This document shows positions 1,852-64,000 of a stretch of DNA of 64,000 nucleotides, piece after piece; position 1 is the stretch's first letter, and each line of letters opens with the position of its first letter. The notes under the pieces were generated by a model. That model saw only the letters and a list, made by a program, of their open reading frames with translations. It made no database searches and was not told where the DNA came from. The position numbers and the translations under genes are program-made. This stretch comes from Cliona cf. orientalis (taxonomy: Eukaryota > Porifera > Demospongiae > Clionaida > Clionaidae). Where the stretch lies: the NCBI GenBank assembly GCA_963930775.1, contig OZ005689.1, forward strand, positions 14,384,923 to 14,448,922, given 5' to 3'.

Positions 1852-2803
1852 TGGCAGTGTTGCCATGACATAGTTATAACATTGTAGGCCATGGTACAAG
1901 TTGGTTACACAGTGCCCTTGGTGGTGTAAATCGCATAGAGACCTCCACCTTGGTGTGTAACCTATACTTATACACCTGAGAGTAGGTGTATAAGTCGTCC
2001 CTCAGGCAAACTAAGTTATAATTACTATATACACCTCTGAGTAGGTATAGAAGTCTTCCCTCAGGCACTCACTGTATGGCGCGGGCTGTGATCAATTGAT
2101 CATCTCTGGTAGCTAGGCCTAACAAAAGCTCCCCGGCATGCTGTTGTACTAGGAGCAATGTGCAATAGCAGTAGCTATATAGACCAGTAGTAGCATGCTA
2201 GTGCACTGTGGCATAGCTATACATAGGGCAAACTGCCTCGTACAATTGTTTACAGTGTACTTGGATGTGTCTCACAAATCTGGCGTTGATATTTGCCAAG
2301 GAGTGAGATTGGATGTTTCACAAATGTTACTTTTGTGTCGTTGATTTACGATTCAGCCACGAAAATCAATTAGCTATAGTTTGGCCGCTGTCCCGAGGTT
2401 CTGAATAACAGTGTACCTACTAGTACTGTTTAATATGCTTTAACTAAACGTAGGACAGAGCCGTGTCTCCAAGTATAGCATGACCTTGCATTACTTCAAT
2501 GCTGTATTATTAGTGGTTATGGTACACTGAGCTCTAAATATGATTGTACTCCACATGATGTACAATGTGAGATATGAGCTACCAAAAATATCCTCAAGCT
2601 GCAGGTAACATAGCTGTAAAAATGTATGTACAATATGAACAATGGTTAATAAAAGCTTGTTGCTGCTGTGAATCAATAACTTGAGCTACGTCCATCCACA
2701 CTGTCTGTTATTCAGAGATTCCACGCAATTAATTTTCAATTTGTGTTAGTACTTATGACTACAGTAACTGCTATTTTCCCATAAACATACAATACTATTG
2801 CAG

Positions 2804-2956
2804 GATCATGTGCAAGTATTGGAGCTGCTCCTGGATGCTGTGCCCCAAATAATGCTCCACATTGCAATGCGGGAGGCTGCTGGTGTGACAACTTGTGCCT
2901 TCAACTGAACGACTGTTGCTTTGATGTTCCCAGCTCAGTGAACTGCAATCCCACAA
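2804..2956 (+). other. Exon: somatomedin-B-like Cys-rich domain
   Basis: Exon of 51 codons, phase 1 at both ends (acceptor AG 2802-2803, donor GTAAGT at 2957). It encodes eight cysteines in a pattern like C-x8-CC-x7-C-x4-C-x-C-x3-C-x6-CC-x8-C, including GCC, WCDNLC and NDCCFD. The CD..C....DCC signature is that of somatomedin-B domains, which are short disulfide-packed protein-binding modules outside the cell. It is the most N-terminal domain visible. Confidence 0.75.
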
Positions 2957-5900
2957 GTAAGTGCAATCTAGATACGTCATCTTGGGGAAGTAGCCAGGAA
3001 GTTTGATTTGGTGGGTAGCTAAGCATGTTTGATTGCTGTTCCCAATTAGACAACTGCATTAATTTGTTTACTGTTCTTTAATTTAGCTATTATTAACTGT
3101 TACACTTTGTTTCAAAATCATGAATGAAAGTTACTCTCCTGGTTACTTCCAGCTGAGATGAATATAGGGGTTGCATAACTTATGGTTACTAGCTTCTTTT
3201 GTGATCATATATAGCTACTTGTGGCTCCTTGTCGGGAATTGCCAATGGTGGAATCAGCCTCTCCAATGGCAATAATGTTGGTTCAGTGGCCACATACAGC
3301 TGTAATTCTGGATTCATTCTTCAAGGAGACTCCACACGGACTTGTTCAGCTAGTGGAAGTTGGTCCGGGTCTGTCCCAACCTGCATTGCACTCAGTAAGA
3401 TATAAATATCTCTAGGTCACATTAATATTCTATAAAATTACGAATTATACCGTAAAGGTACATTTTTATGCGTGTGAAAAATTTATGCAAATCGGTCAAA
3501 ACGGGCCTTTTGAAAAATTTACGCGATTTTTATTTATGCGTTTAAACGTTGCGTGCATTACAAACATATGGCGCGATAATATTTATGCGGATACAAAATT
3601 ATGCGACCGCCACTTGACTCGCATGATTTGCATAAATAAAACTTGCACAGAAAAAATATTACGGTACAGCTGTGTAAATATTATAGTTTGCTAATGCTAT
3701 GTACACAATAAAACTTCCAAGTCGTCTACTTTAGATATAAAAATTTGCCTTCCTGAATCTATCTCTTCTACAATATCCATCTAGTTGGCGCCTACTTACC
3801 ATAAATTTTAGACCTGGCCAATATATCAGTGCAAGCATGAAAATGTAACTTTTGTACCAATTATGAATATTGTGACACACACAATGTGAAAATTGTAGCT
3901 AATTAACCATCTAGCCTTGAAGTAGGGGCCCAATAATTAAATTTGGTTGCAATGATAACAGCTTGCAGCTCCCTGCCCCTACCTGCTAATGGTGGTATCA
4001 GCTATACCAGTGGCAACTCTATTGGCTCAGTGGCTACCTACAGCTGCAACTCTGGTTTTACTCTGGAAGGAAGCTCCACCAGGACTTGTACTGTTTCTGG
4101 GGGGATTTCCACAAGTTGGTCTGGTTCAGCCCCTAATTGCATCGCAATTGTTGGTAAGTTATCATCATATCATGTCCTTTTATTATTGGACAACTATTTG
4201 GGAGGTTATTTAGCTGATTGGAGATCAGCTTGTACTCTGCCATTTGTGGTGGAGGTATTGTACATGCTTGGTAGAGGTCGTCACATACACTTGGCATTGC
4301 GCTTCTGCAGCTTATGACAGCAAGAGAGAGCACCATCTTGTTCAAGAAATGTAGTAGCATGTTCTCTCTCTATAAGGGATGTTCTACAAGCCCCTCACTA
4401 CACTGTACTGAGCTTTTCCAACAGCATTTTAAGAAGACTATCAAGATGCAGAAATTGTGTGCAATCATGATCATACCATCTGTTGCACATGTCTATTTGC
4501 TGTTGGGTAGCTACAAACTATCATTACACTGTTATCAATTAAACTGTTACACTCATGCAGTTGCTCCCAGCCAACTTCTGGTCCGACAAGGGGGCACAAC
4601 CTCATTCCAGTGCAGTTTGGTTTCTCCAGTCAGTGGCGACTCACTAACCTGGGTGAAGCTCGCAACATCAAATATTGGAAGCTTCAGTGGAGGTGTGGCT
4701 TGTATCAACGGTGATAGTACTATCTCAGCAAGAGCACAGTTGCTGGGGAATGAAATTATTGTGGCCAATGGTGGCACTCTGAACTTTGCCCCGGTGAATT
4801 TTGGAAACGAAGGATCTTATGTGTGCACTATGAGAAGAGCAGGATCAGTAGTGTGCTATTCTGGAGCAGTCCCTGTGACAGGTAGGCAAATCCATGTATA
4901 TATACGGAGGAATCTTTGAAGACAGTGGAACCTCCAAATGGCAGACAAGTTTGGGACCTATTTTTCTGCCCTTAGAGATTTGGAACCATAGGAAAGTTCA
5001 CTTGTGGTGCCTTAAATCTTGTCCTTAGTTCAAGTTAGTTGCATTCATCACTGATATCTAGTTAGTAAGCCTCAATAACAGGGCCCTAAAAAAGTTAATA
5101 GATTTCTAAACATAAGACCTGCTCCAAGCAGCTAGTTTGATTTAATTTCCTGGGGATGCATGCTCTCAGACCCCCCCCCCCCCCCACCAATAAAAAAAAT
5201 CCTGTATGAAACCCTGAGTAAGGAATCTTTGCTTTGTGTTTTGATCAAGGCAGTAGGCTTCAAGCATGGTAGCAATATCCTCCTGCATCAAGTTCTTTTG
5301 CAAGCAGGATTTCTTGCTAGTGTAACAGTTAATTATCTATTTGCTGGATTAGTTTGTTATCAATAAATCTGTAACAATTTATCCAGTGTCTCCTGAATTC
5401 AGCGTCATGACGAATGCTCCCATCAACAGCATGAGGGGGAGGACTGAACAGCTCACCTGTTCGGCCCAGGGTGGTCCTCAAAATAGCTTTACATGGAGGA
5501 GACAAGATGACAACAGCATCGTAGGCACAGCAGCACAGACTTCGGTCACTCTAAATCAAGGGTCAGATGGTGGTATATTTGTCTGCATAGTAGCAAATGC
5601 TGCAGGAAGTGGAAGTGATGAGACAACACTGAATGGTAGTACCTATAAATATTTTTAGTATACTTAATATTGTTGCTTGACAAATCCTTCAGACCAAGAT
5701 TATTAAACGTGCATGCATGGCTTTAGAATGAATAGTATCCTTTTGCCTTTACCTTTGAAGGACAAAATGTTGACCATGCAGGCTTTTAATGACATAGATA
5801 GTGAGCCCTTTGTTCAAACACTGATATTATACAATATAGCAGGAAGTGAATTCTGATTACACAAAAGTAATGTCATCATTTATAATTCAAGGATGATATT

Positions 5901-8900
5901 AATTGACCATAATACGTCAAACCGTCCTTGTTAACTACAGACAAGCATTTTGTTATAATAGTACTGATCACCCCCACCCCCTTCCTTTTTCAGTTGCTCC
6001 ATATATTACTGAGTTCACAGTACCACAAACGGCACTGAATGGAGGGAGTACAACTCTGAGGTGTGTCGCCTCAGGCTTCCCCACACCAGCGATCTCCTGG
6101 TCTCACAATGGTACCCAGCTACTTCAGGATAACCGTATTACCACTACTACCAGTGGACAGGTGGTGACGAGTATACTGGACATTCCCATGCTAGGATTTA
6201 TAAATTCTGGTCAGTACATCTGCCAAGTGACAAGTTCAGTGCCACAGTATCAACCGGTGACAAATTCCGCAACTCTTACAGTCCAAGGTAATGGTGGAAA
6301 CTACTGTAAATCTGGAAATTTCCGTTGATACTGTAAATCCAGAAATTTTTGTGTAATGATGCTTTCGTTGGAAAATTTTTCATGTAAAAGTATTTTTGTA
6401 GGAACAACCCCATGCCACACTGAAGCATGCACGTACATTTTAATTTTCATAGCTTCTATCAACTACGAAAATATTTTTACAATGAAATTTTCCAGATTTA
6501 CGTACGGTATACACAAGTCTGCCCTATCATGTTATGTACAATAAACAAATTTCAAATAAACCTTCAGTTTGCACTCTAATTTGCTGACCTATACTGTTCT
6601 ATTATCTTTTTTCCATTCTGTCATGTATGACACAAATGAAAATTACTAATCAGTTTATAGCTACCCGGTACATACATTGCTTTTCTACTGCTCTATATTC
6701 ATTACAAACTTTACTAGTCCGAAATTGGTGACGTATACTACTTTTGCTCACCGCAGATGTTGCTGAAATGCCTGAGGGTGTGGCAGCTGCAAGCATTGCA
6801 TCACGACAAATCACCTTGACATGGGTGGAGCCTCATGACAATAATGCCCCCATTATGAACTACCAGGTGCAATACTTGCAGCCAGAGTTTGTGACTGGAA
6901 ATAGGGAGGTTACTGTGACCACCACTGTCACGATGGCCACCCTAACTGATCTCTATCCTGGAGTAACTTACATTTTCACAATCACTGCTCATAACACCAT
7001 AGGCTCCTCTCTACCCAGCCTGCGGGCTATTGTAAGGACTCTGGATGAAGGTAAGTCACTTAATGAACAAATCAATAATAATATTCTATACTACAGTTTG
7101 TTATCTATTTTCTATTCTCTGGCTAGTAGCTACCCTCTTCATGAAAGCTGTATTATTATAATATTTAAGTTATAGTTTGGGTATAATACAGTTCAGTCAT
7201 AATTACACAGCACACTATAACACTGTCATCATGCAGATTTGCTATTGATATTCTATTTAACCTTCATGCAGCTCCAGCTGGTCCTCCACAAAATTTGTTT
7301 GCACTAGCCAACTCTGCCAATATTATCGTAGTGACCTGGGATAGTGTTCTGCCCATACAACGGAATGGGATCATCACCATGTATGAGATACTCTATGAAC
7401 CACTGGAAACATTTGGTGGAACTATACACAGCCTAACTAAGACTGTATTAGGTACAGAAACGCTGACAGTTCTGACAGATTTGGAAGAATTCGTCAACTA
7501 TCGCATATCTGTCCGAGCCTACACCAGTGTGGGGGCTGGGCCTTACAGTGGTACTACGACTGATATGACAGCAGAGCATTGTGAGTATCCAACTTCCAGT
7601 AGCTATTGCATACCATGATGATAGTGCTATTTTCACCTCAGATCCTGCTAGTCCTCCAAGCAATATAAATGTGATGGCCAGCTCCTCTACCTCTATTACA
7701 GTGACTTGGGACATTGTACCTCCCATAGACCAGAATGGGATGATCACTATGTACGAGGTGCTCTACCAACCACAGGAAACATTCGGTGGAGCAATAGCTT
7801 CTGCATCCAGGACATTACCAGTTACAAACATGTCTGTAGTTCTGACTAATTTGGAGGAATTTGTCGGCTATGCCATCTTTATCCGAGCTTTTACTAGTCT
7901 GGGGGCCGGACCTTTCAGTAATGGAGTGATACAGACTACTAACACCGATGGTAGCTACCTACACATCTATTAATAATACTACTATTTATATGTTTGTCTT
8001 AACAATAGTTCCTGCCAGTCCTCCTACAAATGCCATGACCAATGTGACATCATCTACTGAGGTACTGGTGACCTGGGATATTGTCACACCCATAAACCAG
8101 AATGGGATCATCACCATGTACGAGGTGCTCTACCAACCACAAGAGACATTCGGTGGAGCTGTAGGCCCCTTGGTGGAAATGGTGGTAGCACCTACCTTAT
8201 CTGTCACCCTCACACAACTACAGGAGTATGTGGTATACAGTGTTAGCATCAGAGCCTTCACTCAAGCCGGTCCAAGTGGCTACACTGCAGCTCTACAAGC
8301 AAGAACTCTACAAGATGGTAATGATTGTATGCATCAGTGTGCAATATTAACACTCTGTATTCTTCAGTTCCATCTGCTTCACCCACCATCACCGAGGCCA
8401 CGGTGATATCCCCAACAGAAGTTGAAGTCTCTTGGGCTCAAGTGGAACCAATTCACCAGAATGGGATAATAACTGTGTATGAGGTGGATTACCAGCCACT
8501 GACTGACTTTGGGTCAGAGGGTGTGACAGTTGTGAACACTACAAATACCACCATTGTGCTCATGGACTTGCACGAGTCAGTGCAGTACGATATCACAGTG
8601 AGGGCATTTACCAGTGTGGGAGGAGGGCCGTTCAGCAACCCTGTGGCAAGTATCACTCATGAAGATGGTATTTATAAGCTTTGCAAATTAACCTATAATC
8701 TGATTTTTCACAATAATATTATGTAATATAGCTCCTGCCAATCCACCTGTTAATGTTCAAGCTGTCAGCATCTCTTCTACTGAGATTATGGTGTCTTGGG
8801 GTGTCGTCCCTCCCATAGACCAGAATGGGATCATCACTATGTATGAGGTGCTCTACCAACCACTCGAAACATTTGGTGGAGCTATCCAGACTCTAACTAG

Positions 8901-11900
8901 GAATGTGTCTGGGACAGAGATGTCAGTGGTTCTGATGAACCTACAAGAGTTTGTCTACTATAATATCTCTGTTCGAGCATACACTCGTGTGGGAGAGGGG
9001 CCTTACAGTGATGATGTAACAGTTAGAACCAATGAAGATGGTAAATGAATTTTAATTTTTTTGCCTAGGTTAATATGTCATGATGGTCTTTTTCTAGCTC
9101 CGGCCAGTCCTCCCAGTCAAATAACTCAAACTGCATTGTCACCGACTGAGATACTAGTGACCTGGGACAGAGTACCTCCCATAGACCGGAATGGGATCAT
9201 CACTATGTATGAGGTACTCTACCAACCACTGGAAACGTTCGGTGGAGCTATAGGGCCTTTGACGGTGACTGTCACATTTCCAAACATGTCAGCCATTCTT
9301 ACACAACTGGAGGAATATGTTGTCTATAATATTAGTGTCAGAGCTTTCACTGAAACAGGGCCTGGTGTCTACAGTATTATGCAAGAGAGAACTCTAGAGG
9401 ATGGTAAATGAATAACTACTCTCATACTAGTAAAAGGCTTGTTACATATATAGCATCCTGCCTCCAATCATTTGGCTGTATACTAGTCTAGCCAGCTAAA
9501 CCCTCTCTCGCTGGCCACATATAACATGTGCGAAGGATCATGTAAGTGGAAACCTTTTTGCCATGCTTATAAAAAGTGCGGTAGAAGGTCAGTTGTCTGG
9601 ATCTCCAATCATAGTAACCCAATAATTATTATCAAATTGTACAGTCCTACATGTAAGCAACAATCATTAGCATATCAGAAGCTACACCAAGTAAATACTG
9701 TACATTAGTTAGCTATTTAGTTATCTAAACACCTTCTGGTCCCAACCTGTGATATAATATGATCTATATTTCTTTGCAGTTCCATCAGGAGCTCCTACAA
9801 TTAATCAAGCCATGGTTATATCACCAACCGAAGTTGAGGTCTCTTGGTTTGAAGTAGATCCAATTCACCAGAATGGAATAATAACTGTGTATGAGGTGGA
9901 TTACCAGCCACTGACTGACTTTGAATCAGAGGATGTGACACGTGTGAACACTACAAATACCACCATTGTGCTCATGGACTTGCACGAGTCAGTGCAGTAC
10001 AACATCACAGTGAGGGCATTTACCAGTGTGGGAGGAGGGCCATTCAGCAACCCTGTGGCAAGTGTCACTCGTGAAGATGGTACATACTCATATTTACATA
10101 TCAAACTTCACTTATTGCTTAATTATTCCTTTATATAACAGCTCCTGCCAGTCCACCAACTAATGTTGATGCTGTAGGCATCTCCTCTACTGAAGTACTA
10201 GTGACCTGGGACATTGTCCCTCCCATAGACCAGAATGGGATCATCACTATGTATGAGGTACTCTACCAACCACTGGAAACATTCGGTGGAGCTATAGGAC
10301 CTCTGACTTGGAATGTGTCTGGTACAGAGATATCAATGGTTCTGACAGACTTACAAGAATTTATCAACTACACTATCTCTGTCCGAGCCTACACAAGTGT
10401 AGCAGAAGGTCCTTACAGTCAGGAAATTTCAGTATCCACCTTCGAAGATGGTAAAGTGATTAACCTTATGCTAAGTATAATAATTATCACGCTATTGTTC
10501 AGTTCCTGCCAGCCCACCTGCTAATGTTGCCACAACTGTCCTGTCATCCACTGAGATCATGGTGACCTGGGACAGTGTCCCCCATATAGACCAGAATGGG
10601 ATCATCACTATGTATGAGGTGCTCTACCAACCACTGGAAACATTTGATGGAGCAATACAGACTCAAACCAGATATGTGTTAGAGACTAACCTCTCATTGG
10701 TCTTAGTGGATTTGGAGGAGTTTGTAAGTTATGCTATCTCCATCCGAGCTTATACAAGTTTGGGAAATGGACCCTACAGTGAACCTGTGACTTCATTGAC
10801 TTTGGAAGATGGTAGTCTTGCATTTATACATGTAGAATTTAATGGTTCAACATAATACTGTATTAATTCAGCTCCTGCCAGTCCTCCTGATAACGTTAAT
10901 GCAAGTGTGGTGTCATCTACTGAGATATTGGTGACCTGGGACCCTGTCCCCCCTATAGACCAGAATGGGATTATCACTATATATGAAGTGCCCTACCAAC
11001 CACTGGAAACATTCAATGAAACAATAAGCAGCAATTTGATGATTTCAAATCAAACTTCAGTTTTGATAGCTGACTTACAAGAGTCTGTCTTGTACAATAT
11101 CAGTGTCCGTGCATATACCAGTGTGGGGGAGGGTCCTTTCAGTGAAGAAGTACTTGCTATGACTTTTGAAGACAGTAAGGTTTATTGATCAGTGTATGAA
11201 TGATCATTACAACTAGCCCCATTCATTCCCACAGATCCCTCAAATTTTCCTACAAATGTGGCATCTATGACACTTTCTTCAACTACAATTGAAGTTAATT
11301 GGGACATTGTCCCTCCCATAGACCAGAATGGGATCATCACTATGTATGAGGTGCTCTACCAACCATTGGAAACATTCGGAGGGGCTATAGGACCTCTGAC
11401 TAGGAATGTGTCCGAGACTGAGATGTCAGTGGTTCTGATGGACCTACAGGAATTTGTCAGCTACAATATCTCAGTCCGAGCCTATACCAGTATAGGGAAT
11501 GGGCCTTATAGTGAACGTTTTACTGACATGACACTAGAAGATTGTAAGTTACTTCTCAACAAGTGTAATTATAGTCAATTTTCCTCTCCTAATTCCTTCT
11601 AGTTCCAGCTAGTCCTCCAGACAATGTGGCTGCTCTAGCCAATTCCTCTACCACAATTATAGTGACTTGGGATATCATCCCTCCCATAGACCAAAATGGG
11701 GTCATCACTATGTATGAGGTGCTTTATGAGCCATTGGAAACATTTGGAGGAGCCATCCAGACTCAAACTAGGAATGTATCAGGGACAGAGATGTCAGTGG
11801 TTCTAACGAACTTGGAAGAGTTTGTGAATTACTCTATATCTGTCCGAGCCTACACCAGTGTGGGGGAGGGACCTTATACTGATGAAATAAGAGAGAAAAC

Positions 11901-14900
11901 TAATACTGATGGTATATTAATTTTTGATTTTTCACAGACGTTTAATTAAATTTCATTTTATTTGCTGCAGTACCTGCCAGTCCTCCAACCAATGTCACAG
12001 CAACTGTAGTATCATCCACAGAGATACTCACAATGTGGAACATTGTGCCCCCAATTGACCAGAATGGGATCATTACCATGTATGAGGTGCTCTACCAACC
12101 GCTAGAAACATTCAATGGGACAACAGAATCAGCTGTAGTGAACATCATGACCCCTAACACCTCAGTCATCCTCACAGACCTAGAAGAGTATGTGCTGTAC
12201 AATATTAGTGTCAGAGCCTTCACTGAAGCAGGGTCAAGCGAATATGCATCAGCTCCATTGGTCAGAACACTTGAAGACGGTAATATTTGTTAGACAGTAT
12301 ACGCGAGGACTGTATGACTCATGACTGAGTCAGCATTATGAGAATGTAATAACAAGTAACACCTAAAAGTGTTAGTTCTAAGCCTCTCATACATACATGG
12401 TGCATACAAAGGGGCCGGCTCTTACAAATTTGATGCTTGACCTGCAGAAAGAATTTCAAGGCAGTATAAATTCCAGTGGCCTTAAAGCCAGAGCTCAATG
12501 TAATATTTACCCCAATACCTAGGTTTTGGATTATAAAGCCATGCATTTAGCAACAGAGTTTCTGTTTGGTACATACTAGTGTATAATAATGCATTATTCT
12601 GTGCTTTCATTACTAACTTTCTGTCCTTTAAATTATATATAGTTCCATCCAGACCCCCTGTAGTCACTGAGGCTATGGTTATATCACCAATGGAAGTTAA
12701 AGTTTCCTGGCTTGAAGTGGATCCGATCCACCAGAATGGGATTATAACTGTTTATGAAGTTGATTATCTGCCGTTGGTTAACTTCTCTTTTGATATAAGA
12801 CGTGTTAACACTACAAATACCACCATTGTGCTCATGGACTTGCATGAGTCAGTGCAATACAACATCACAGTGAGGGCATTTACCAGTGTGGGAGGAGGGC
12901 CATTCAGCAACCCTGTGGCAAGTGTCACTCACGAAGCAGGTATAACATTCCCCCCCCCCCCCCCCCCAAATCATGTACATCGATTAATTGACAATACTAA
13001 CTCTGTTGTATTTCTATCAAAATCCTCCCCCCTCCCCAAAGTTGTCATCCTGTGTGCTAATGCTAATACAAATTTAACGTTGACGTCCAAAAAATGTATG
13101 CTGTAAAACCTCTTAATAATATGGAGACACAACCTTTATCCCTTGTGGAAAGATCTCTTGTGTACCATTAAGCAGTACTTTCAATAATTATCCTCTATAA
13201 AGTAGTTTATCCTCTTAATGTCTTTGATCAAAGATCAATTGCACTTAAATAGAGAATAACATGCATGACATAATTTAACTAGAGTGTTACTATATCATAT
13301 AGCTCCTGATGCTCCTCCTACTAATGTTCAAGCGCATAGTTTCTCTTCCACTGAGATTATTGTGACCTGGAACAGTGTCCCTCCCATCAACCAGAATGGG
13401 ATCATCACTATGTACGAGGTGCTCTACCGATCACTGGAAACATTTAGTGAATATATCCAGACGAGGAACGTTTCAGGGACAGATCAGATGGCAATAATTT
13501 TGATGGACTTAGAAGAGTTTTTTGATTACAATATCTCCGTCCGAGCCTTCACCAGTGCGGGAGTGGGGCCTTACAGTGATGAAGTGACAGCTACAACATT
13601 TGAAGATGGTAAGAATAGTTGACCATAGGCGGATCCAGCATAGGGGCACAAGGGGCACGTGCCCCCCCCCTTTTTGGAGAGCCACACATGCAAACTATAT
13701 AGCTACAAGAGAGGCACACATTCTAGGGCTATCAACTGTGGAGTAAACTTTGTGACTATCTATAAACCAACTTACTTAGTGCTTTTTAGCTCAAATGGCT
13801 GAGCCATTTCCATTTACCACGTGTCGACTAGCGTTGAGCGGCAATTTAAGGGGTGTGGTCAAGCGTTAAGGGGCGTGGTCGCAAAATTTTCGCGCGCGCT
13901 TCGCGCGCATGCCCCCTCCTATCACAAACCCTGGATCCGCCACTGTTGACTGCCATGTATGTATGTATGTATGCAATGTTTTTGTCTACAGTTCCTTCTA
14001 GTCCTCCCGATAACGTTACAGCCACTGTATTGTCACCAACTGAGATACTGGTGACTTGGGATATGGTCCCTCTCATCGACCAGAATGGGATCATCACACT
14101 CTATGAGGTGCTCTATGTACCACTGGAAACGTTTAATGAAACCATCCAGGCGATTACTAGGGAAGTGAACGGGACTGAGATGTCAATAACTCTGACTGAT
14201 GTACAGGAATTTGTCAATTATACTATATCTATTCGAGCTTACACCACTATGGGGGAGGGGCCTTACAGTGAAGAAGTGATGGTCACGACATTGGAAGACG
14301 GTATGCGCATGAATATTTGAATGTTACTAGTCAATTAATGTTCTATTCTACTCTTACAGCCCCTGCGAGTCCTCCAGATAACGTTATAGCTACTGTGCTC
14401 TCATCTACAGAAATATTAGTGAACTGGGACAGTGTCCCTTCTGTTTACCAGAATGGGATCATCACTATGTACGAGGTGCTCTACCAACCTCAAGAAACCT
14501 TCAATAATGTGATAATGAGCAACAATTACCTGACTATTGAAGATACGAGCCAAACCTCAGTTTTGATAGCAGGCTTACAAGAGTCTGTCTCATACAACAT
14601 CAGTGTCCGAGCATACACCAGTGTGGGGGAGGGACCATTCAGTGAAGAAATAGTCGTTGCAACATTTGAAGATTGTAAGTATAGTGCTCATCACATACAT
14701 GTAAAATGTTTTGCTTTAATTTGAAAACTAACAACTCAGCTTTTGTTAATTGTATTTTTATTAGATCCCTCTGATTTTCCTGCGAATGTGGTATCCATGA
14801 CTCTCTCTTCCACTGCGATTAGAGTTACTTGGGATCCTGTCCCTCCCATAGACCAGAATGGGATCATCACTATGTATGAGGTGCTCTACCAACCACTGGA

Positions 14901-17900
14901 GACATTTGGTGGAGCTATCCAAACTCTAGCTAGGAATGTGTCTGGGACAGAAATGTCAGTGGATCTGGCAGACTTGCAAGAGTTTCTTAACTACTCCATT
15001 TCTGTCCGATCCTTCACCAGTATTGGAGATGGGCCTTACAGTGAACAACATATTATTATGACAGATGAAGACAGTAAGTTGAATAATTATAATGGTATCT
15101 TGGATTGAAGTGTGGGGCAACTATACTTTGATTCCTACCTCATCCTTGCAGTTCCAGCTAGTCCTCCTGACAATGTGGCTGTCATAGTCAATTCAACCAC
15201 AACAATTATAGTGACCTGGGACAGTGTCCCTCCCATGGACCAGAATGGGATCATCACTATGTATGAGGTACTCTATGAGCCATTGGAAACATTTGGAGGA
15301 GCTATCGAGACACTATCTAGAAATGTGTCAGTGACTGACATGTCTGTGGTTCTGATGGACTTGGAAGAATTCGTCTACTACAACATATCTGTCCGAGCCT
15401 ACACCAGTGTGGGGGAGGGGCCTTACAGTGATGGAATCACCGAACTTACCGACAACGATGGTAATGAAACATTTCTGCACGAAGCTATAGCTAAGTATTA
15501 TGACATTGATGTGTGTAGTCTTTCCAACCTATATGCCTTAAAGGTTGGGTGCTAATTTTGAGTTTTGGTCAAAGTTTAGTGGTTTAATGAGTATAAATAT
15601 TCTTGGTTGTGAAGTCCTTGTATTCAATCTCTATGTATTACAATACCGATTGCAGCATTACAAATTCTGTGACTGTATTGCTATGAACTTACAGCTCCTG
15701 CCAGTCCTCCTGCTAATCCAATGGTGTCAGTTGTGTCACCTTCCGAGATTTTAGTGACCTGGGACATTGTCCCTCCAATAGACCAGAATGGGATTATCAC
15801 TCAATATGAGGTATACTACCAACCACTGGAAACATTTGGTGGAGCCATAGGGCCTATGGTGGAGGCTATCATGCCCCCTAACATTTCAGTCATCCTTGCA
15901 CAACTGGAAGAATATGTGTTCTATAATATTAGCGTCAGAGCTTTCACAGAAGTGGGGCCAAGTGACTACACTACAGCTCTGCTAGAGAGGACTCCAGAAG
16001 ATGGTAAGTATGTAGCTAATATTTATATGGTGGAACCTCCAAATGTTGGACATATTTGGGACGTCGCTATTTTGTCCTTTGTTGTTGTTTGGGTGTCCAT
16101 TGATTGGAGTGTCCTTTATTGGATATTCCACGGCAGTTGAGTGTAGACTTCAGAATCTTTCCCACGTAATTCCTACGTTAATTTTAATTCCTGATTTCAA
16201 TTTCAGTTCCATCCAGGGCACCAACTATCATCGAAGCCATGGTTGTATCGCCAACTGAAGTCGAGGTCTCTTGGCTTGAAGTGGATCCAATTCACCAGAA
16301 TGGGATAATAGTTGTGTATGAGGTGGACTACCAGCCCATGAATGACTTTGAATCAGAGGGTGTGACACGTGTGAACACTACAAATACCACCATTGTGCTC
16401 ATGGACTTGCACGAGTCAGTGCAGTACAACATCACAGTGAGGGCATTTACCAGTGTGGGAGGAGGGCCATTCAGTAACCCTGTGGCAAGTGTCACTCATG
16501 AAGCAGGTATAAATTTCTGAGTAGCGGATATGGTTTAAGACTAATGTTTTCCATCTGTTCTGTCCTTTGTTGAGAGGTTGTCATTCATTGGAAATTTAGT
16601 ATTAAACTATAATTATGACTCATTGTACATTAAATCTTGAAGATTATTTGTATTGCAATATCCTTTATGTTTACTCTAGTAGTGTAGAGTATAATAATTA
16701 TGGAGATCATAACTGTATTATCATCACACAGCTCCTCACAGCCCTCCTGCTAATATTCAAGCAACAAGTATCTCTTCCACTGAGATCCTGGTGACCTGGG
16801 ACAGTGTCCCTCCCATAGACCAGAATGGGATCATCACTATGTACGAGGTGCTCTACCGACCATTGGAAACATTTAGTGGAACATTAGAGACTCTAATTAG
16901 GAACGTGTCAATGACGGAGATGTCTGTAGTTCTGACAGATTTGCAGGAATTTAACAGCTACAATATCTCAATACGAGCCTACACCAGTGTTGGAGAGGGA
17001 CCTTATAGTGAAGATTTGACAGCTACAACCTTAGAAAATGGTATACATACGTACATAAGCTAAATAGAAGTATTATGATGATGATATTAAATTTTGGTAA
17101 CTCAGTTCCAGCTAGTCCTCCTGACAATGTGGCTGTCACAGTCAACTCATCCACAGCAATTATAGTGACCTGGGACAGTGTCCCTCCCATAGACCAGAAT
17201 GGGATCATCACTATGTATGAGGTACTCTATGAGCCATTGGAAACATTTGGTGGAACCATAGGGCCAATGTTTGTGAGAGTACCAGGAACAGAACTTTCTA
17301 CGGTACTGTCAGACGTACAAGAGTTTGTCAGCTACAATATCTCTGTCCGAGCCTACACTAGTGTAGGGGACGGACCTTTTAGTGATAGCATGATAGTAAT
17401 GACACCGGAAGATGGTAAGTTACTTACATGTATGCTATTGTAATTTGTGAATGAATTGTAATTTTTGAATGCCTCTTTTTAAATAGTGCCTGCAACTCCT
17501 CCCGTCAATATCACAATGACAGCTGCCTCACCAAGGAGTATTACTGTAATGTGGGAGGAAGTAGCCCCAGTAGACCAGAATGGGATCATCACTATGTATG
17601 AAGTGCTGTATGTACCACTAGACACATTTGGAGGAGCAATTCAGAGCCAAATGATAGATATCCCGGTGACCGATATGTCAGTGCTTCTGATGGATTTGGA
17701 AGATTATGTTGGCTATTTCATATCTATCCGGGCCTTCACCAGTGTGGGGGAGGGGCCTTACAGTCAAGGGATGATCATCAGAACACAAGAAAACAGTAAG
17801 ATCATGATTTACACACAGACAGAGCAAAAAACATATCTATCATGTATACAGTTCCAGATGGTTCCCCAGACAATGTAACTGGAATGGCCGATTCTTCCAC

Positions 17901-20900
17901 CACAATTATAGTGACCTGGGACAGTGTCCCTCTCATAGACCAGAATGGGATCATCACTATGTATGAGGTGCTCTACCAACCCCTCGAAACATTCGGTGGA
18001 GCTATAGGACCTCTGACTAGGAATGTGTCTGGGACAGAGATGTCAGTGGTTCTGATGGACCTACAGGAATTTGTCAGCTACGATATCACAGTCCGAGCTT
18101 ATACAAGTGTGGGGGAAGGGCCCTACAGTACTGAAATATCAGTTGTGACATTGCAAGATGGTATGTTATCTTTAACTTAACACACTTAACATTAACTGAT
18201 GAAATGTTTCAGGACCTGCCAGACCTCCAACCAATGTCATGGCCATGTCTACCTCATCAGAAAGCATTAATGTAGCGTGGGAGGAGGTGATACCACCAAT
18301 AGACCGGAACGGGATCATCACTATGTATGAGGTGCTCTACCAACCACTGGAAACATTTGGTGGAGTCATAGGGCCCATGACAGAAGTAGTCAATGCTCCA
18401 AGCACTTCTGTCATCCTTACAGAATTGGAGGAGTATGTGCTCTATAATGTCAGTGTTCGAGCCTATACTGAAGCAGGACCAAGTGACTACACTACAGCAG
18501 TAATGGAAAGAACTAATGAAGATGGTAAATAAAGTCAATTCTTGTAGTGTATCTAGATTTTAATTGATATAAATATTCAGTTCCTTCTGCGGCCCCTGTT
18601 ATTCAAGAAGCCATGGTGTTATCACCGATGGAAGTTGTGGTCTCTTGGGGTCAAGTGGATCCAGTTCACCAGAATGGGATAATAACTGTGTATGAGGTAG
18701 ATTACCAGCCACTGACTGACTTTGGGTCAGAGGATGTGACACGAGTTAACACTACAAATACCACCATTGTGCTCATGGACTTGCATGAGTCAGTGCAGTA
18801 CAACATCACAGTGAGGGCATTTACCAGTGTGGGAGGAGGGCCGTTCAGCAACCCTGTGGCAAGTGTCACTCACGTAGCAGGTATACTATAAACAAATTAG
18901 AGGTAGGGCATGTAAATTACATGCATCCACAACCTCACAAGATTTACTCTTCTCTCATATTAAGCCATCTCACCAGATATCCTAACAGGCACAATTTAAC
19001 TATTAATTTTATGCAGCTCCTCTCAGCCCTCCAGCAGATGTTTTTGTGATGAGTACCTCTTCTGTACAGATAGTGGTGACTTGGGATGTTGTCCCTCCCA
19101 TAGACCAGAATGGGATCATCACTATGTACGAGGTGCTATACCAACCTTTGGAAACTTTTGGTGGAGCTATCCAGACTCTAACTAGGAATGTGTCTGGGAC
19201 AGAGATGTCAGTGGTTCTGACTGACTTAGAAGAGTTTGTCTACTACAACATATCAGTCCGAGCCTACACCAGTGTGGGGGAGGGGCCGTATAGTTCTGAC
19301 ATGACTTCTCAGACTCTTGAAGATGGTAAGTAGTATGATGTGTACTACATACACCATATTAAATATTACATACCGTATTCGCTCGATCAGACGCCGCGGC
19401 TACTATTTATTTCATCGCCCGAGTTTGTGCGGCGTTTATTCGAGAGCGGCGACTATTCGAGAGCGGCGTTTAGTAGCTGCCAGAGAGGCAGTCTTTAGAG
19501 AAACTGTCGATTGACAGAACTGATCTAGGAGATTCTGGCCCTTTTGCTGATGTAGAAGAAGATTAGAACTTGTTCTATACTACCTCTCGTATACCTGCCA
19601 TCGAAAACGAGTCGCGAGGCATGTCCACGTGCTGGTGTTCTCGAATAGTAGGCGTGGCGCGGCTACTATTCGAGAGCGGCGACTATTTCGTTCGGCACTT
19701 CCGGAGGTGCGGCGACTATTCGAGAGCGGCGTCTGATGGAGCGAATACGGTACTTACATGTGGTTGATATACAGAGCCTGCCAGTTCTCCCTTGGATCTT
19801 ATGACAGTGACCACTTCACCAAGAAGCATCAATGTCATGTGGGAAGAGGTGGAACTAATAGACCAGAACGGGATCATCACCCTGTATGAGGTTCTATACC
19901 AACCACTAGAAACGTTCGGTGGACAAATTGGAGCACTAACCACAAATGTGTCTGAGCTAGCAACAAACCTTACGAACATAGAGGAATTCGTTAACTACAC
20001 TATCTCTGTCCGAGCTTACACTAGTGTGGGGGCGGGGCCCTATAGTGATGGAATGACTGTCATTACACCACAAGATGGTAAGTCCTAAATAGTGGCACAC
20101 ACGTTATACAGGAGTTTAAGAAATCACCTCTTTGAATCTCAAATAGTGCCTTCTGCTCCTCCTGAGGCAGTGTTGTTATCGGTGACCTCCGCTAATGAGA
20201 TATTAGTCTCATGGAGCGAAGTCCCTCTTATTCATCAAAATGGCATCATCACACTCTACGAAGTATTCTACTATCCATTAGAGGACTATCATAACCCACT
20301 TAGAATTCCCATGGTCCAAAACACAACAGACCTCTCCTTCAACCTGATGAGTCTGCATGAGTTTGCTAACTATAGTATCCAGGTGAGAGCTTTCACAGAG
20401 GTGGGGCCAGGACCTTACAGTGACCAGCAGTTCATCAGGACAAACACAGCAGGTACATATGAATTCAAAATGACAATGGCCAGGAGTTTATATCACTGCG
20501 GCTACTGCAATTTGCTGTATTGTAGCTAATTTGCTGTACTGCAGATACATGAGCATAATACGTATAATGTGTGGATACATTATAGTTAGCTGCTTCTTAA
20601 ATAAAATTGTTCTCATTCTCTATTATTATGCATAGCACCTGCTGTACAGCCAACAGTGGTCACGGCTATGACTCTGTCCTCTACAACCATCTTTGTACAA
20701 TGGCAAGAAATTCCAGAAATAGAAAGAAATGGGATCATCATCGAATATCAGATTATGTATAGCTTTTCCCAAAACCCTCCACAAGTAGACAGCACCACAG
20801 AACTCTCAATAGGACTCCTCAATCTTGCAGAGTTTGAGTTGTACAGTATCCATGTGAGGGGAGTGACGACCGCTGGACCTGGGCCTTACAGTGATCCAGT

Positions 20901-23900
20901 ATTTGCAATGACAGAGGAAGATGGTATGGACTTTTAACATGCACTAGTCTTGTATTTTATGCGTGATGGGCATCAAAGTTTGTATCATGACTCCTTAATT
21001 GGTGGCATTGAAACTCCATTGTACCCTTGGGGAGATAGGAGACTATTCAAAGGAGGTATACAGTATAGGTTATCCTCAGTAACTTCCTCTCACAACTATG
21101 TATAGTTGCTGGACCTGTAGGAGAACTTCCAGAGGTAGATGTGACCTCAACAACTGCTCAGCTTCAATGGGATCCACCAGATGACCCTAATGGAGTTATC
21201 ACCATGTACAGACTCAACATTGTGGCCCTCTCTACCAACGCAGCTAGCTTCATTGAGGAGGATGGGTCAGGGGCCTCAGGTGTGAATAGCAACACAATGA
21301 TTGGGTCAGGGTCCATGCAGGTGGATGTGAATGTTGACTTGGATTGCATTATACCTGGAGGGGATGTTGGTGTGGAGACATTTGTTACATTTATGAATGG
21401 AAATTTGACAACACATACCCTATATGGCCTGAGTAAGTTACTTCATAACTACAATTCAGAAATTTCAGGCCTGCATGTATGTTGGAGGGGGGGGGGGGGT
21501 GTCTGTATACCCTTTGAGTTGCACTATGTACATGAATTTATATGGTACTTGCGTAGGCCATAGCCAATTTCATGAATGTTCTATGGTATAAAAGAATCCC
21601 CTTTCCCAGAAGCAGTATAGCTACAGGCATGCATGATTTGTCTTCACATAGCCATGGATCTTTTCATACTCTTACTAATGCAGTCTATTTTAGGGGTCCT
21701 ACAAACTTCAAGGCTTTTTCAGCAGTGATTATATATATGCATATGAATCCCCCCCTCCTATAGAAATAATCTCTCTTTACTCAAGGTACATATATGCTGT
21801 GATGTATCATTTATTCAAAATTAATTTTTATCACTATAGCACCTTACACTGTCTACCAGTTCAGAGTTCAAGCAGCCACTCATGTTGGTTTTGGACCTTT
21901 CTCGCCACCAAGAGAGTTTATCATGCTAGAAAGTGGTAAGGAATACATGTCTCAGGAATTCTCTGTATGCATTTTCTAAACCTTAAACTAAAGGCTGATA
22001 AACGGCTCATTGAGTAGCCTGTTCTATATACGTGAGATTAACATAACCACACCCTTGAAGTTCTTGTAGTAGTTAATAACCAGATACTGTTATTTCCCAT
22101 GTCATCATGCGGCAGAGCCTGCTGAGGTTCTCAATTTGACAGCCACCGCAATTAACTCTTCTGTGATCAGAGTTAGCTGGGCTAATCCTCGGTGTCCATA
22201 TGGGAGCATCTCAAGATACATTGTGTTCTACAGAAAGGGAAGTAATATAGCACAGTCTACAAACATTACAAGTATTGGATACGAAAGCTCTGACATCACT
22301 CCTGATGCTGATAGCAATACACAGCTGTATGACATCTCAGGACTATCACCTTACACCAACTACAGTATCCATGTTCAGGCTGTTGTTACCCCAACTCTAG
22401 AGGGTGGGCCAGATCTCTTTGGAAGAATAGAAATGGAGGTTGTTCAGCAGACACACGGAGCTGCTGATCCAGAAAATGTTCCAACAGCCCCTCCCACAAT
22501 CACACCTACCTCTCCTCCCACTTTGACAGAAATTGTTCATCTGATTGGAGACCCACAGGATATAGATACAGGCAGGGTTATGTAAGTCAGTGTAGTATAA
22601 TTGAAGCATGGGAGTATTTATCTCTTTTGAGTTGCAATGATTAATTTATGTAGGCTAAGCCCTTTGAAAATAGAACCCTCCTTTAGCAAAAAAAAAAACA
22701 AAAAACATGGCATTTTCCCAGAAGCTGTATATAGGCATATCTATGGAAGCCGAGAAGTGCACTTTTCTGGACCTTACCCGCACGATCTTGGACCTGTCTC
22801 CGCTAGCGGAAGGTCCCTCTTCGCTAGCGGAATGTCATTCTCCGCTAGCGGAAAAATAAACCTCCGCTAGCGGAGAATGTCTCAACTTTTCGCTTGCCGA
22901 GAGTGAGTTGTGCGAGGAGACAACTTATCTACTACACGGCATATAGACGTACCTACATGCAGCTGAGAGGCCACGATGCAGACATCGCATCGAGAACTTC
23001 TTTGGTTCGTGGAGCGAGATCAGCGACCCCGTGTTATTCTAATTGAAGCGCACCATGCAACTTCGCGATCTTAGGGGTGCCTATAGGATCTGAGAAGTTT
23101 CCTGTTTATGATTATAATGCACTGATGATTGGATTGCTGTAGACGTTTACTAAGCAGGTATTTGGACATCACATCGATCAAGGACTAGTTTGGCAGTGGG
23201 CGTACAGACGCAGCCCGGGCCTCACGCCGCGAAAGGTACGAGGTGTGCTTGAATTAGAACAACACATGGTACAGGGTCGCTTTGCTCGCTCCACGAGTTA
23301 AAGTCGTCGACGCGATGTCTATATTGTGGCCTCTCAGCAGCATGTAGGTAGGTCTATATGTCGTGTAGATAGAGCGGCGTCTCCGCGCACAACCCGCTCT
23401 CTAGTCTGGGTGCCAGGGGCTGGCACCCAGACTACTCGCTCTCGGCAAGCGAAAAGTTTAGTTCCGCACGCGAAAGACAGGTCTCCAAATGCAGGGCTGA
23501 GACATTCTCCGCTAGCGGAGGTTCATTTTTCCGCTAGCGGAGAATGAATCTCCGCTAGCGGAGAGGGACCTTCCGCTAGCGGAGCGTAGTGCGGGTAAGG
23601 TCCAAAAAAGGTGCACTTCTCGGCTTCCGTACATATCATCATCATTGCATATGTAGCAAGCCTAAATCTGCTACACTGTAACATTTCATTTTAGCAATTG
23701 TGTACCATTTCCCACAGCTTGTGTGCAGTTGTAGTGGTGGCAGGAATTGCAGATCAAAACAGAACAGTGTATGACATGGCCTCCCCTTACTCCGAAGGAA
23801 GTGACTTCTACATCACAGGAGGGTGGGATGAACAAACCATCTACGCCGGCAGGGTTCCCTCAGCTATTACTGTGGGTGACGGTGATGAATACCCCACAGT

Positions 23901-28984: not shown

Positions 28985-30498
28985 TACGGTGGCCGAGAGA
29001 GACACACACGCACTATGATTCGACCTTAAGTGATTCGACCGTAATTCATGCCACTGTAAGCGATTCGATCCTAAGCGATTCAACCTTAAGCGATTCGTTG
29101 GTAAGCGATTCAACCTTAAACGATTCGCTGGACCAGGTAAGCGATTCAACCTTAAGCGATTCGCTGGTAAGCGATTCGTTGGTAAGCGATTCAACCTTAA
29201 GCGATTCGCTGGTAAGCGATTCAACCTTAAGCGATTCGCTGGTAAGCGATTCAACCTTAAGCGATTCGCTGGTAAGCGATTCAACCTTAAGCGATTCGCT
29301 GGTAAGCGATTCGTTGGTAAGCGATTCAACCTTAAGCGATTCGCTGGTATTAAGCGATTCGTTCACGGTAAGCGATTCAACCTTAAGCGATTCGTTGGTA
29401 AACGATTCGTCACTAAGCGATTCTTTGGTAAGCTACCCACCGCTTCTACCTTCATTATTGCGTTAAAACATCAGCCACACCTCTTCTTTGCTAGTTATCC
29501 CGCGCGCGCATACGCAGCAAGGTGTGAATTAAGCGATCGGGTTTATCTGTCGTCAACACGAAAATCGCCAGATGTGATGATCTAGGCATGTGAGTGAGTC
29601 ATAAGCACAGGGAATCCGTAGGAATCGTCGAATAATTGGCTGAGCCTCCAGTATGCCTCTAATTGTTTGATGAAGCCCACGAACGTCGTAAATACTGTGT
29701 TTTATGGCCACGCCTATCAACCATACCCAACATCAGGCCATGTACGCAAAACTATTTTGCATATGTAGGTAAAGATCGTCAATAGGCGATCTGCAGCTAC
29801 AGATGCAGCCATCAGCACGCGGGTACACTGTAAACAGAGCTCTAGTTATTTGGGCGGTTCCAGGAACGAATCCGCCGTTTAATATAATATTATAGCTTAC
29901 AGTCAAATTGCCTGCGGTGGAATTGCTTTCCAAAGAAAATCGCTATACGGTTAATAAATCGCTTATCAGTCGCAAAGCTTATCAAAGAATCGCTTACGAA
30001 GAAATCGAATTGCTTAAAGATGAATATTTAGCCTACCAATGAATCGCGTAGGATTGAAATCGTTGCCCAATGAATGGCCTATGGTCGAATCGCGTACCAA
30101 CGAATCGCCTAGGGTCGAATCGCTTACCAACAAGTCGAATCGCGATCGCGTACTTACCAACGAATCGCTTAAGGCTGAATCACTTAGTATCGAATCGCTT
30201 ACCAACGAATCGCTTAAGATTGAATCGCTTAAGGTTGAATCGCTTACCAACGAATCGCTTACCAACGAATCGCTTACCAGCGAATCGCTTAAGGTTGAAT
30301 CGCTTACCAACGAATCGCTTAAGGTTGAATCGCTTACCAACGAATCGCTTACCAGCGAATCGCTTAAGGTTGAATCGCTTACCAACGAATCGCTTAAGGT
30401 TGAATCGCTTAGGATCGAATCGCTTACAGTGGCATGAATTACGGTCGAATCACTTAAGGTCGAATCATAGTGCGTGTGTGTCTCTCTCGGCCACCGTA
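28985..30498. mobile_element. 1.5-kb TIR element with 15-bp subterminal repeat arrays
   Basis: The ends TACGGTGGCCGAGAGAGACA and its complement (ending 30498) are followed inward on each side by arrays of a 15-bp unit GCGATTCNNNNNTAA: about 29030-29430 in one orientation and about 30030-30440 in the other, as mirror images. The core (29460-29980) carries no transposase. Because the unit is a multiple of three and lacks stops, long Ser/Asp/Leu or Asn/Arg/Leu ORFs appear in several frames; these are artefacts. The terminal TA could be a target duplication. Confidence 0.85.
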
Positions 30499-38903: not shown

Positions 38904-39557
38904 TTAGTTACAGCACCTCCGGTTGTCTCTGGGCAATGGTGGCTGAGGCATAATTTGTATAGGCTTTGAATTTCCTTTAGTGACACCTTGCCATCCTTCT
39001 TCAAGAACAATATCCCCTATGCGCAATTTCCAATACACTCTACTAGCTAGAAATGGGAGCAGTTCGTCTACATTCTGCCCAGTTCTAGCAGATGTTTCAA
39101 TGTAGTCCATTCCGAAATGTTGCGCGAACTCCTTAGCCTCCGTCTGACTGACAACTCTTGGCTCATTAACATCTTCTTCTATCTTATTTCCAACCAATAC
39201 GAACGTAGGTTCGCGAGGATAAGCACCCTCCTTTGCATCTTCCACCCAGTTGCTCAACTCATCAAACGATTTTCGATCCTTTACATCGAAAACTAGGAAA
39301 CCGCCAACCGCACTGCGATAATAAGCCTTAGTTATCGTGCGATATTTCTCTTGACCTGCTGTATCCCAGAGTTGAATTTTGATAGTTTTATCTTCGACCT
39401 GGACTTTCGTTACACTGAAATCCATGCCCATTGTGGGCATGGGATCAGTGAGGAACTTGTCAGGGTCCTTTATGCGGCCGAGGATACACGATTTACCGAC
39501 CCCGCTGCTACCAATGAGAATCATTTTGAAGTCATAATGGTAATAGTCGTCAGCCAT
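38904..39557 (-). CDS. Rab39-like small GTPase, single exon
   Basis: 217 residues, the usual Rab length, with no intron. The start (MADDYYHYDF) lies just before the first beta strand. Motifs: P-loop GSSGVGKSC (about residues 17-25), switch I PTMGMDF, switch II WDTAGQEKYR, AYYRSAVGG, FVLVGNKIEED, ETSA, and C-terminal RRCCN, whose two cysteines should be geranylgeranylated. The stretch EEGWQGV after the last helix resembles the EGWEGV of Rab39, so Rab39-like is the best guess. Rabs switch between GTP and GDP forms to direct membrane traffic. Oddity: the NKxD guanine-specificity motif reads NKIE. The intronless structure in an intron-rich region could mean a retrocopy, but the frame is intact. 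Confidence 0.93.
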   Translation of the reverse strand: MADDYYHYDFKMILIGSSGVGKSCILGRIKDPDKFLTDPMPTMGMDFSVTKVQVEDKTIKIQLWDTAGQEKYRTITKAYYRSAVGGFLVFDVKDRKSFDELSNWVEDAKEGAYPREPTFVLVGNKIEEDVNEPRVVSQTEAKEFAQHFGMDYIETSARTGQNVDELLPFLASRVYWKLRIGDIVLEEGWQGVTKGNSKPIQIMPQPPLPRDNRRCCN

Positions 39558-63954: not shown

Positions 63955-64000
63955 CTGAAGCCCCCCTTACCCCCCCTATTTCTCCACCCTGGTTATTACC
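62653..64000. other. Low-complexity end of window, no gene
   Basis: Contains G-rich GGGGGGAGGGGGGGGCC (about 63060), a 32-base G run (63648-63679) and a 31-base G run (63924-63954). Between them CATATGCCCACGGCCCACC and CATGCTCCCGAGTCCCCC resemble transposon ends of the C-run type. No coding region is supported. Confidence 0.5.

Follow-up and report, generated by a model that had tools for sequence, protein, structure and literature searches.

A long FN3 array with a tandem seven-domain block in a LAR-type-related receptor gene of the sponge Cliona cf. orientalis

Introduction

LAR-type receptor phosphatases carry Ig and then FN3 domains in their ectodomain, and two PTP domains in the cytoplasm. 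In the R3 receptor phosphatases, FN3 repeats are combined with one PTP domain, and a sponge member has been reported (PMC5336234). Tandem blocks of several domains are described e.g., for complement receptor 1, whose 28 SCRs fall into four LHRs and thus seven each (PMC5736761). Likewise, positional types A, B and C are distinguished among the FN3 domains of the titin A-band, a chain that grew by duplication of super-repeats (PMC10665226).

Here, we describe a gene in a window of 64,000 nucleotides, i.e., the whole stretch of DNA that was analysed, from the demosponge Cliona cf. orientalis. Like the LAR-type (R2A) receptors PTPRF, PTPRD and PTPRS, its product combines Ig and then FN3 domains, with a putative juxtamembrane ectodomain of the RPTP kind, and the best PDB matches of a profile of 27 FN3 domains are PTPRF (3e-37) and PTPRD (4e-30). 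Unlike them, it features 34 FN3 domains, probably Sushi domains upstream and a further Ig-like exon adjoining the membrane helix, and no PTP domain was found in the window. With the R3 members PTPRB, PTPRJ and PTPRQ it shares an FN3 ectodomain in which most domains are single exons between phase 1 introns, as described for R3 (PMC5336234), but it differs from these by its Ig domains and, again, by the PTP domain. As in complement receptor 1, multi-domain repeat blocks occur within one receptor; the number of LHRs differs among people, however, whereas the blocks described here are old and give no indication of polymorphism. The titin super-repeats resemble the array in its positional types and its probable growth by block duplication, although titin, a protein of the muscle filament, has a repeat that mixes Ig with FN3 domains, and the excerpt of the source makes no mention of copying below the exon level (PMC10665226). 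The evolutionary process itself is already known from titin and complement receptor 1.

Results

Gene layout and domain types

All features listed in Table 1 lie on the forward strand. The gene model was built from splice phase alone, with the 40-bp exon at 24062-24101 as a guess needed to keep the frame, and for D2, ending at 7580, an alternative donor at 7598 scores equally. The first open stretch is presumably somatomedin-B-like, a label given by eye only. Ig stretches corresponding to the three Ig domains are also present in the paralogs on C15. An Rfam scan of the window gave no matches.

Table 1. Features of the receptor gene and its surroundings (positions within the window).
Feature	Position	Strand	Remark
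Cysteine-rich open stretch	2785..3003	+	no Pfam match; belonging to the receptor gene uncertain
Sushi domain open stretch	3205..3402	+	PF00084, E 3.8e-14; probably part of the gene, judging by strand and order
Second Sushi domain open stretch	3937..4210	+	PF00084, E 4.6e-11; probably part of the gene
Three Ig domains	4560..6325 (~4560-4895, 5386-5646, 5993-6325)	+	ig 1.7e-6, Ig_3 3.7e-8, I-set 4.7e-13
FN3 D1, divergent	6757..7050	+	by eye like the first FN3 of the C15 paralogs
FN3 D2-D5	7272..8667	+	D4-D5 are a C-B pair
FN3 D6-D8	8732..10079	+	D7-D8 are a C-B pair
114-bp identical tract (B exons D8, D22)	9934..10047 = 16361-16474	+	conversion-like
Seven-domain cassette 1, FN3 exons D9-D15	10142..12939	+	C-B at the end
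Seven-domain cassette 2, FN3 exons D16-D22	13303..16506	+	C-B at the end
FN3 exons D23-D28	16732..18880	+	cassette-like start and end; inner order not clean
FN3 exons D29-D32	19017..20923	+	
FN3 domain 33, over two exons	21106..21935 (21106-21432, 21840-21935)	+	
FN3 domain 34 and Pro/Thr-rich linker	22116..22581	+	fn3, E 1.1e-11
Putative RPTP-type juxtamembrane ectodomain exon	23718..23997	+	two relatives on C15; no Pfam match
Extra Ig-like exon between juxtamembrane domain and membrane helix	24528..24884	+	Ig_2, E 2.5e-5, under the curated cut-off
Transmembrane helix exon	24957..25086	+	hydrophobic run, then KYRR; phases fit
Short acidic cytoplasmic tail	25175..25388	+	DTYL, then stop (25386); no Pfam match, no phosphatase

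The array comprises 32 single-exon FN3 domains of phase 1-1 (D1-D32, 6757-20923), with a mean protein identity of 0.56, and two further FN3 domains which reach 22581. The limits given in an earlier note for the repeated region, 10142 and 18880, coincide exactly with exon edges. Trees recovered a C clade {4,7,14,21,27} and a B clade {5,8,15,22,28} with bootstrap values of 99 and 100%, and in all five cases a B-type domain directly follows a C-type domain (chance 6e-6), which agrees with the previous observation that a C-B pair closes each cassette and recurs at 4-5 and 7-8. The A and C types, together 24 of the 32 single-exon domains, form a clade with one domain of a paralog (support 0.89), from which D31-D32 and all five B domains are excluded. 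Structure prediction for the FN3 alignment (27 domains) gave an all-strand model that is too uncertain for use (mean pLDDT 68, pTM 0.51).

Ordered pairing of two seven-domain blocks

The in-order pairing of domains 9-15 with 16-22 ranks first among 5040 assignments, on DNA as well as on protein, and, when the C and B types are set aside, first of 120; a tandem seven-domain cassette inside one gene is real. Across D2-D31, mean DNA identity is highest at offset seven when offsets 1-22 are compared (p = 0.0004 against 5000 shuffles), and this holds when A types only are shuffled. With seven offsets tested, offset 3 stood out just as clearly among the A types (p = 0.0002; overall p = 0.034), and offsets 10 and 17 were raised too. 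No comparable period was apparent in the control arrays. Forcing neighbours to pair (9-10, 11-12, 16-17, 18-19) instead of domains at offset seven was rejected in constraint trees, from which D1 was left out (AU p ~1e-6).

The one-for-one match initially proposed for 9-15 and 16-22 stands in part. Pairs 11-18 and 12-19 are strong (bootstrap 98 and 95%) and 13-20 is good, being a reciprocal best DNA match with a bootstrap below 80%, whereas 9-16 and 10-17 are weak pairs whose constraints were merely not rejected (AU p = 0.11 and 0.30), and 14-21 and 15-22 match at the level of the class, with 7 as nearest DNA relative of 21 and 8 of 22. All seven pairs constrained jointly were borderline (AU p = 0.055). 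For 23-28, read earlier as a six-domain cassette, the ends are kept but the inner order is not clean: the best ordered fit drops 18 and ranks 3 of 5040 against 16-22 and 42 against 9-15 (DNA), and domain 24 shares more with 20 (0.80) than with 17 (0.68), which would be its partner in order. For 9-22, and partly for 23-28, domains in corresponding positions of consecutive blocks resemble each other more than they resemble adjacent domains, as in super-repeats.

We consider it unlikely that no block was ever copied and that single-exon duplications were followed by conversion and by selection on position-specific domain types. Such a course would fit the spread of identical runs of 40 bp or more over 19 different offsets, and in the 3' parts of 9-13/16-20 another order equals the in-order fit. 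Yet the in-order fit still ties for best in these 3' parts and ranks first of 120 in both the 5' thirds and the middle parts, the pairs 11-18, 12-19 and 13-20 are consecutive and followed by C and B in the same order, and the constant adjacency of C and B also speaks for blocks. Judged from the exon sequences, duplication of a block of several exons is the best reading.

Introns and age of the block copy

Homology of introns at offset seven was not found: their ordered diagonal ranks 831 of 5040, the longest exact match at this offset is 9 bp, and after trimming of the introns at both ends the diagonal is unremarkable. A repeat unit of about 3 kb of exons and introns, as had been suggested, is not visible. 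Among 465 intron pairs, introns 20 and 22 scored best, a score attained by 7 of 1000 shuffles. When global scores of 14 intron pairs were compared with 200 shuffles, some lay above, with 21-27 reached by one shuffle and 12-19 by three; for further pairs the score was reached by five (4-14 and 4-27), six (7-10), eight (6-9) or nine (10-17) of the 200. Common base composition and splice signals may account for the raised scores. A recent segmental duplication including the introns was ruled out by the intron alignments.

Since the introns lack homology at offset seven and dS of the seven pairs amounts to 0.63-1.85, the seven-domain copy is old. The earlier note had inferred unequal crossing-over of a unit of about 3 kb of exons and introns and probable differences in length between individuals, which would suit self/non-self recognition or an adhesion ruler. 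Such a process, if recent and still going on, would produce the ordered match and the period of seven, but it is quite improbable in view of these intron and dS data, of a longest identical run of only 114 bp lying inside exons, and of dN/dS values above 1 in none of 136 A-domain pairs. Present crossing-over and length polymorphism are not indicated, because the block is old and sharing is confined to exon interiors, near-identical stretches occurring there and not as 3-kb units. In a DNA search of the one assembly, no second haplotype was found. Allorecognition receptors show extreme allelic diversity and control fusion or rejection; a self/non-self role finds no support here, and the low dN/dS between domains gives no hint of one.

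Identical tracts within exons

Runs of 30 bp or more without a mismatch occur in 75 of 406 exon pairs (D2-D30), compared with 0/78, 0/465 and 0/435 pairs in three control arrays; D1, D31 and D32 were left out, and the controls consisted of domain-hit stretches rather than whole exons. The C15 control array is similar to the window array in mean protein identity (0.50), whereas the C18 array is much more diverged (mean identity 0.31), so that the absence of runs from the latter is weak evidence. Of the 144 runs of at least 24 bp, 143 lie wholly in exons and the remaining one extends 3 bp into an acceptor. In the B exons, fourfold-site identity reaches 0.94-1.00 in the 3' half vs. 0.35-0.68 in the upstream part, and silent-site identity of the 3' half exceeds the expectation from codon usage. 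A third-position permutation test for conversion, again leaving out D1, D31 and D32, singled out no more than 3 of 406 pairs after correction, which speaks against it. On the whole, gene conversion has probably carried short exon stretches from one domain to another. Searches of one library of open papers found nothing on gene conversion in tandem sponge FN3 repeats, on intragenic gene conversion among tandem-repeat domain exons, or on concerted evolution of FN3 by gene conversion.

Relation to receptor phosphatases

The window array is flanked by first and last domains that are also present in two paralogous phosphatase receptors, and comprises 31 tandem FN3 exons as against 13 and 2 in these paralogs. 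The juxtamembrane exon is homologous to both PTP-bearing paralogs (44%, E 6e-12; 38%, E 6e-6), and in the PDB it matches nothing but RPTP delta at E values up to 1, and that weakly (E 0.12). Both paralogs, on C15, carry PTP domains with the motif HCSAGVGRTG, encoded by exons that come after the helix.

By splice phase, in turn, the window gene ends with Ig, membrane helix and acidic tail, without a phosphatase. The LAR-type order of Ig and then FN3 domains is present, while the two cytoplasmic PTP domains were not found, the tail ending at 25386; the R3 combination of FN3 repeats and one PTP domain is absent as well, given that Ig domains are present and a PTP domain was not found. From its sequence, the gene resembles the ectodomain of a LAR-type receptor phosphatase in a demosponge and is best described as related to, but not a member of, this family. 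A demosponge origin agrees with silicatein-type GxCGASYAF sequences at two loci. Neither the family resemblance nor the apparent absence of the phosphatase had been remarked upon in the earlier note.

Alternative splicing or exons past the window could still join the ectodomain to a PTP domain, all the more as the PTP exons of the paralogs come after the helix and our gene model is built from DNA alone. This is nevertheless very unlikely: the tail exon is in frame and ends in a stop, no PTP motif and no convincing tblastn match (best E 1.0) was found in the window on either of its strands as far as position 64000, with the same probes giving 2.8e-18 at the locus of the other paralog, and among the PTP matches listed for the genome (150 of 373 candidates scored) none lies inside the window.

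An assembly artefact or a pseudogene is close to negligible as an explanation, as no two FN3 exons exceed 91% DNA identity, the introns are distinct, all 32 FN3 exons are open with fitting splice sites, and the 17 listed pairs have dN/dS values of 0.12-0.45.

Discussion

Altogether, with a probability of roughly 0.7, we regard the array as the FN3 stalk of a single-pass, LAR-type-related receptor that grew by nested block duplication, lacks a phosphatase and has an adhesive or spacer role. The A-C part would have expanded once the paralogs had separated, through nested tandem duplications in which each exon block closes in a C-B pair, one such block being the seven exons of 9-15 and 16-22. After this old copy, introns have diverged beyond recognition, while short exon-interior conversion would keep the domain cores alike. 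Against this explanation, weak or class-level matches make up four of the seven pairs and the introns hold no trace of the block copy; the position of the B domains outside the A-C clade lowers our confidence further.

The locus clearly illustrates how a receptor stalk lengthens in an early-branching animal, through duplication of blocks that all close with the same pair and later copying of short stretches within exons as introns drift apart. Moreover, a phosphatase-receptor-like gene without phosphatase coexists with paralogs that keep theirs, so that genomes of related sponges could date each step.

As a tentative extension, to which we give little weight, these sponge receptors could be a family built on one common ectodomain frame, with another module multiplied in every member: two types of Ig domain, roughly sevenfold each, in one phosphatase receptor, FN3 13-fold in a second and 31-fold in a third that lost the phosphatase. 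The giant could then act as a long competitor or spacer setting the contact distance, and would either hold the signalling members off cell contacts or keep them engaged there, with FN3 cores kept alike by exon-interior conversion.

The absence of the phosphatase region leads us to infer an adhesive or spacer role for the preferred single-pass receptor, whose very long ectodomain of ~34 FN3 units would be anchored by one membrane helix. An FN3 domain measures ~3.5 nm, and the extended length would be roughly 120 nm. Signalling could proceed only via partners of the short acidic tail, the end of which, DTYL, we take to fit the class I PDZ-binding pattern.

Domain order in the FN3 array

A profile made from the window's own FN3 stretches gave 33 matches, of which 32 each occupy one exon bounded by phase 1-1 splice sites (6757 to 20923; D1–D32 of one receptor gene, all covered by our pairwise identity table). 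The earlier note had proposed a tandem seven-domain cassette at 10142..18880, and these positions are exact exon edges, exon 9 starting at the first and exon 28 ending at the second. The ordered match of domains 9–15 with 16–22 that it described holds, as this pairing has the top summed identity among 5040 pairings for DNA and protein alike and still ranks first of 120 without the C and B domain types. Among seven offsets put to a shuffle test over D2–D31, offset seven reached p = 0.0004 against 5000 shuffles, overall and when shuffling A types only. Offsets 3 (p = 0.034 overall; 0.0002 for A types only), 10 (0.021; 0.008) and 17 (0.006; 0.014) also stood out, offset 14 gave 0.030 and 0.33, and offsets 6 and 13 showed no significance. 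Two control FN3 arrays (13 and 31 domains), judged without a formal test, had no conspicuous offset.

In the maximum-likelihood tree, the pairs 11–18 and 12–19, the C clade and the B clade are all supported, and a forced pairing of neighbours, the outcome that would speak against offset seven, was rejected in the constraint test. The pairs 9–16 and 10–17 are weak, and the joint seven-pair constraint is borderline with an AU p of 0.055. Four of the five domains directly following a B (6, 16, 23 and 29) form one clade with 87% support; domain 9, the fifth, lies outside, a position that may stem from the 0.96 identity of its middle part with 12 and 26.

The third block, D23–D28, had been described as a six-domain version of the cassette, which is borne out at its start and finish but not in its interior order. 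Here, 24 is similar to 20 and 26 to both 12 and 9, and in their 5′ parts 25 and 27 are alike and both similar to 30, so that the block looks like a rearranged mosaic.

Age of the block copy and probable copying inside exons

The introns of the array show no likeness at offset seven, so that a repeat unit of about 3 kb of exons and introns is not visible. Given this and a synonymous divergence of 0.63–1.85 across the seven cassette pairs, the block copy is old, and with a dN/dS of 0.12–0.26 in these pairs the domains are under purifying selection. Length polymorphism and self/non-self recognition, also put forward previously, are not supported by any measurement here.

Identical runs between different exons reach 114 bp; of the 144 runs measuring 24 bp or more, 143 are entirely exonic, and those of at least 40 bp spread over 19 offsets. 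Fourfold sites of B exons are 94–100% identical in the 3′ half vs. 35–68% upstream of it, and like residues of A exons share the same codon in 74–85% of cases in the middle and 47–66% elsewhere (codon-usage expectation 30–42%). A 30-bp identical run occurs in 75/406 exon pairs of the window vs. 0/78, 0/465 and 0/435 in three control arrays; the control on contig C15 has a mean protein identity (0.50) similar to that of the window (0.56), while the measured control on contig C18 is much more diverged (0.31). Gene conversion among exons is thus well supported by this pattern but only modestly by formal testing, as a strict third-position permutation test supported 3/406 pairs. Nucleotide-level constraint may be another cause of the shared exon stretches.

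Host gene and phosphatase paralogs

By splice phase, the array continues 3′ into two more FN3 domains, the first of them split, and then into juxtamembrane, Ig-like, transmembrane and tail exons, the last having its stop at 25386. Across the genome (216.8 Mb, 149 contigs), the juxtamembrane exon has two relatives, both on C15; each sits in a gene whose Ig and FN3 domains precede tyrosine phosphatase (PTP) domains. One paralog carries two PTP domains, their motifs being HCSAGVGRTG and HCSGGSGRTG; in the other, the first PTP has HCSAGVGRTG and a second is at least partly present. Between similar flanking domains, the window gene has 31 tandem FN3 exons and the paralogs 13 and 2, the latter also featuring two Ig types in tandem with 7 matches each. 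In a profile search, the nearest PDB matches of the array were PTPRF and PTPRD, and no phosphatase match was found within the window; its absence holds for this assembly and would probably extend to the transcript. In a joint tree, 24 of 32 window domains group with a single C15 domain; outside this group lie D1, D31, D32 and the five B domains.

Expansion and domain order of the array are shown by sequence comparison. Most likely, the A–C part of a LAR-like receptor's FN3 array expanded after the paralog split, in blocks each finishing in C-B, and the phosphatase part would have been lost or replaced, leaving a long receptor for which we infer an adhesion or spacer function. Multi-domain super-repeats as in this gene are known from titin (PMC10665226) and CR1 (PMC5736761), and FN3-rich receptors from the R3 phosphatase group, one sponge included (PMC5336234). 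The combination found here is a variation on these, and no paper on this gene was found among the open-access papers searched.

Further features

A partial copy of the two-FN3-exon paralog on C15 has two FN3 stretches that pair with that paralog in the tree, and holds further FN3 pieces on the opposite strand. A silicatein-type motif with serine replacing the catalytic cysteine occurs at two loci of the genome, which makes the animal most likely a demosponge.

Coordinates of features in the window and on contigs C15 and C18
Feature	Position	Strand	Remark
Two 17-bp repeat arrays	19429-19731		D29–D30 intron; GCGGCGTTTATTCGAGA and GCGGCGACTATTCGAGA
Fold-back element, ~900 bp	22737-23636		intron preceding juxtamembrane exon; nested inverted arms of 87 nt (94%), 68 nt (87%), 30 nt (90%); repeated CTCCGCTAGCGGA units
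Two arrays of 15/30/45-bp repeats	29017-30466		units apparently mutual complements
Open frame, small GTPase, Ras family	38904-39557	minus	
Open frame, Kelch-repeat protein	48327-49049	minus	
Open frame, protein kinase	50462-51235	minus	
Tandem Ig types of paralog	C15:4047644-4054210		
Partial paralog copy	C15:3600040-3604292		pairs with C15:4054632-4055279
FN3 arrays	C18:3245777-3257171; C18:4664016-4675544	opposite	1.4 Mb apart

The 17-bp arrays are perhaps another small mobile element, and the complementary look of the 15/30/45-bp units would have the two arrays face each other. The two C18 arrays correspond in order except for one split domain; their identity is 45–72% in 22 of 31 stretches and 83–93% in nine, six of them consecutive, which suggests gene duplication followed by local exchange.
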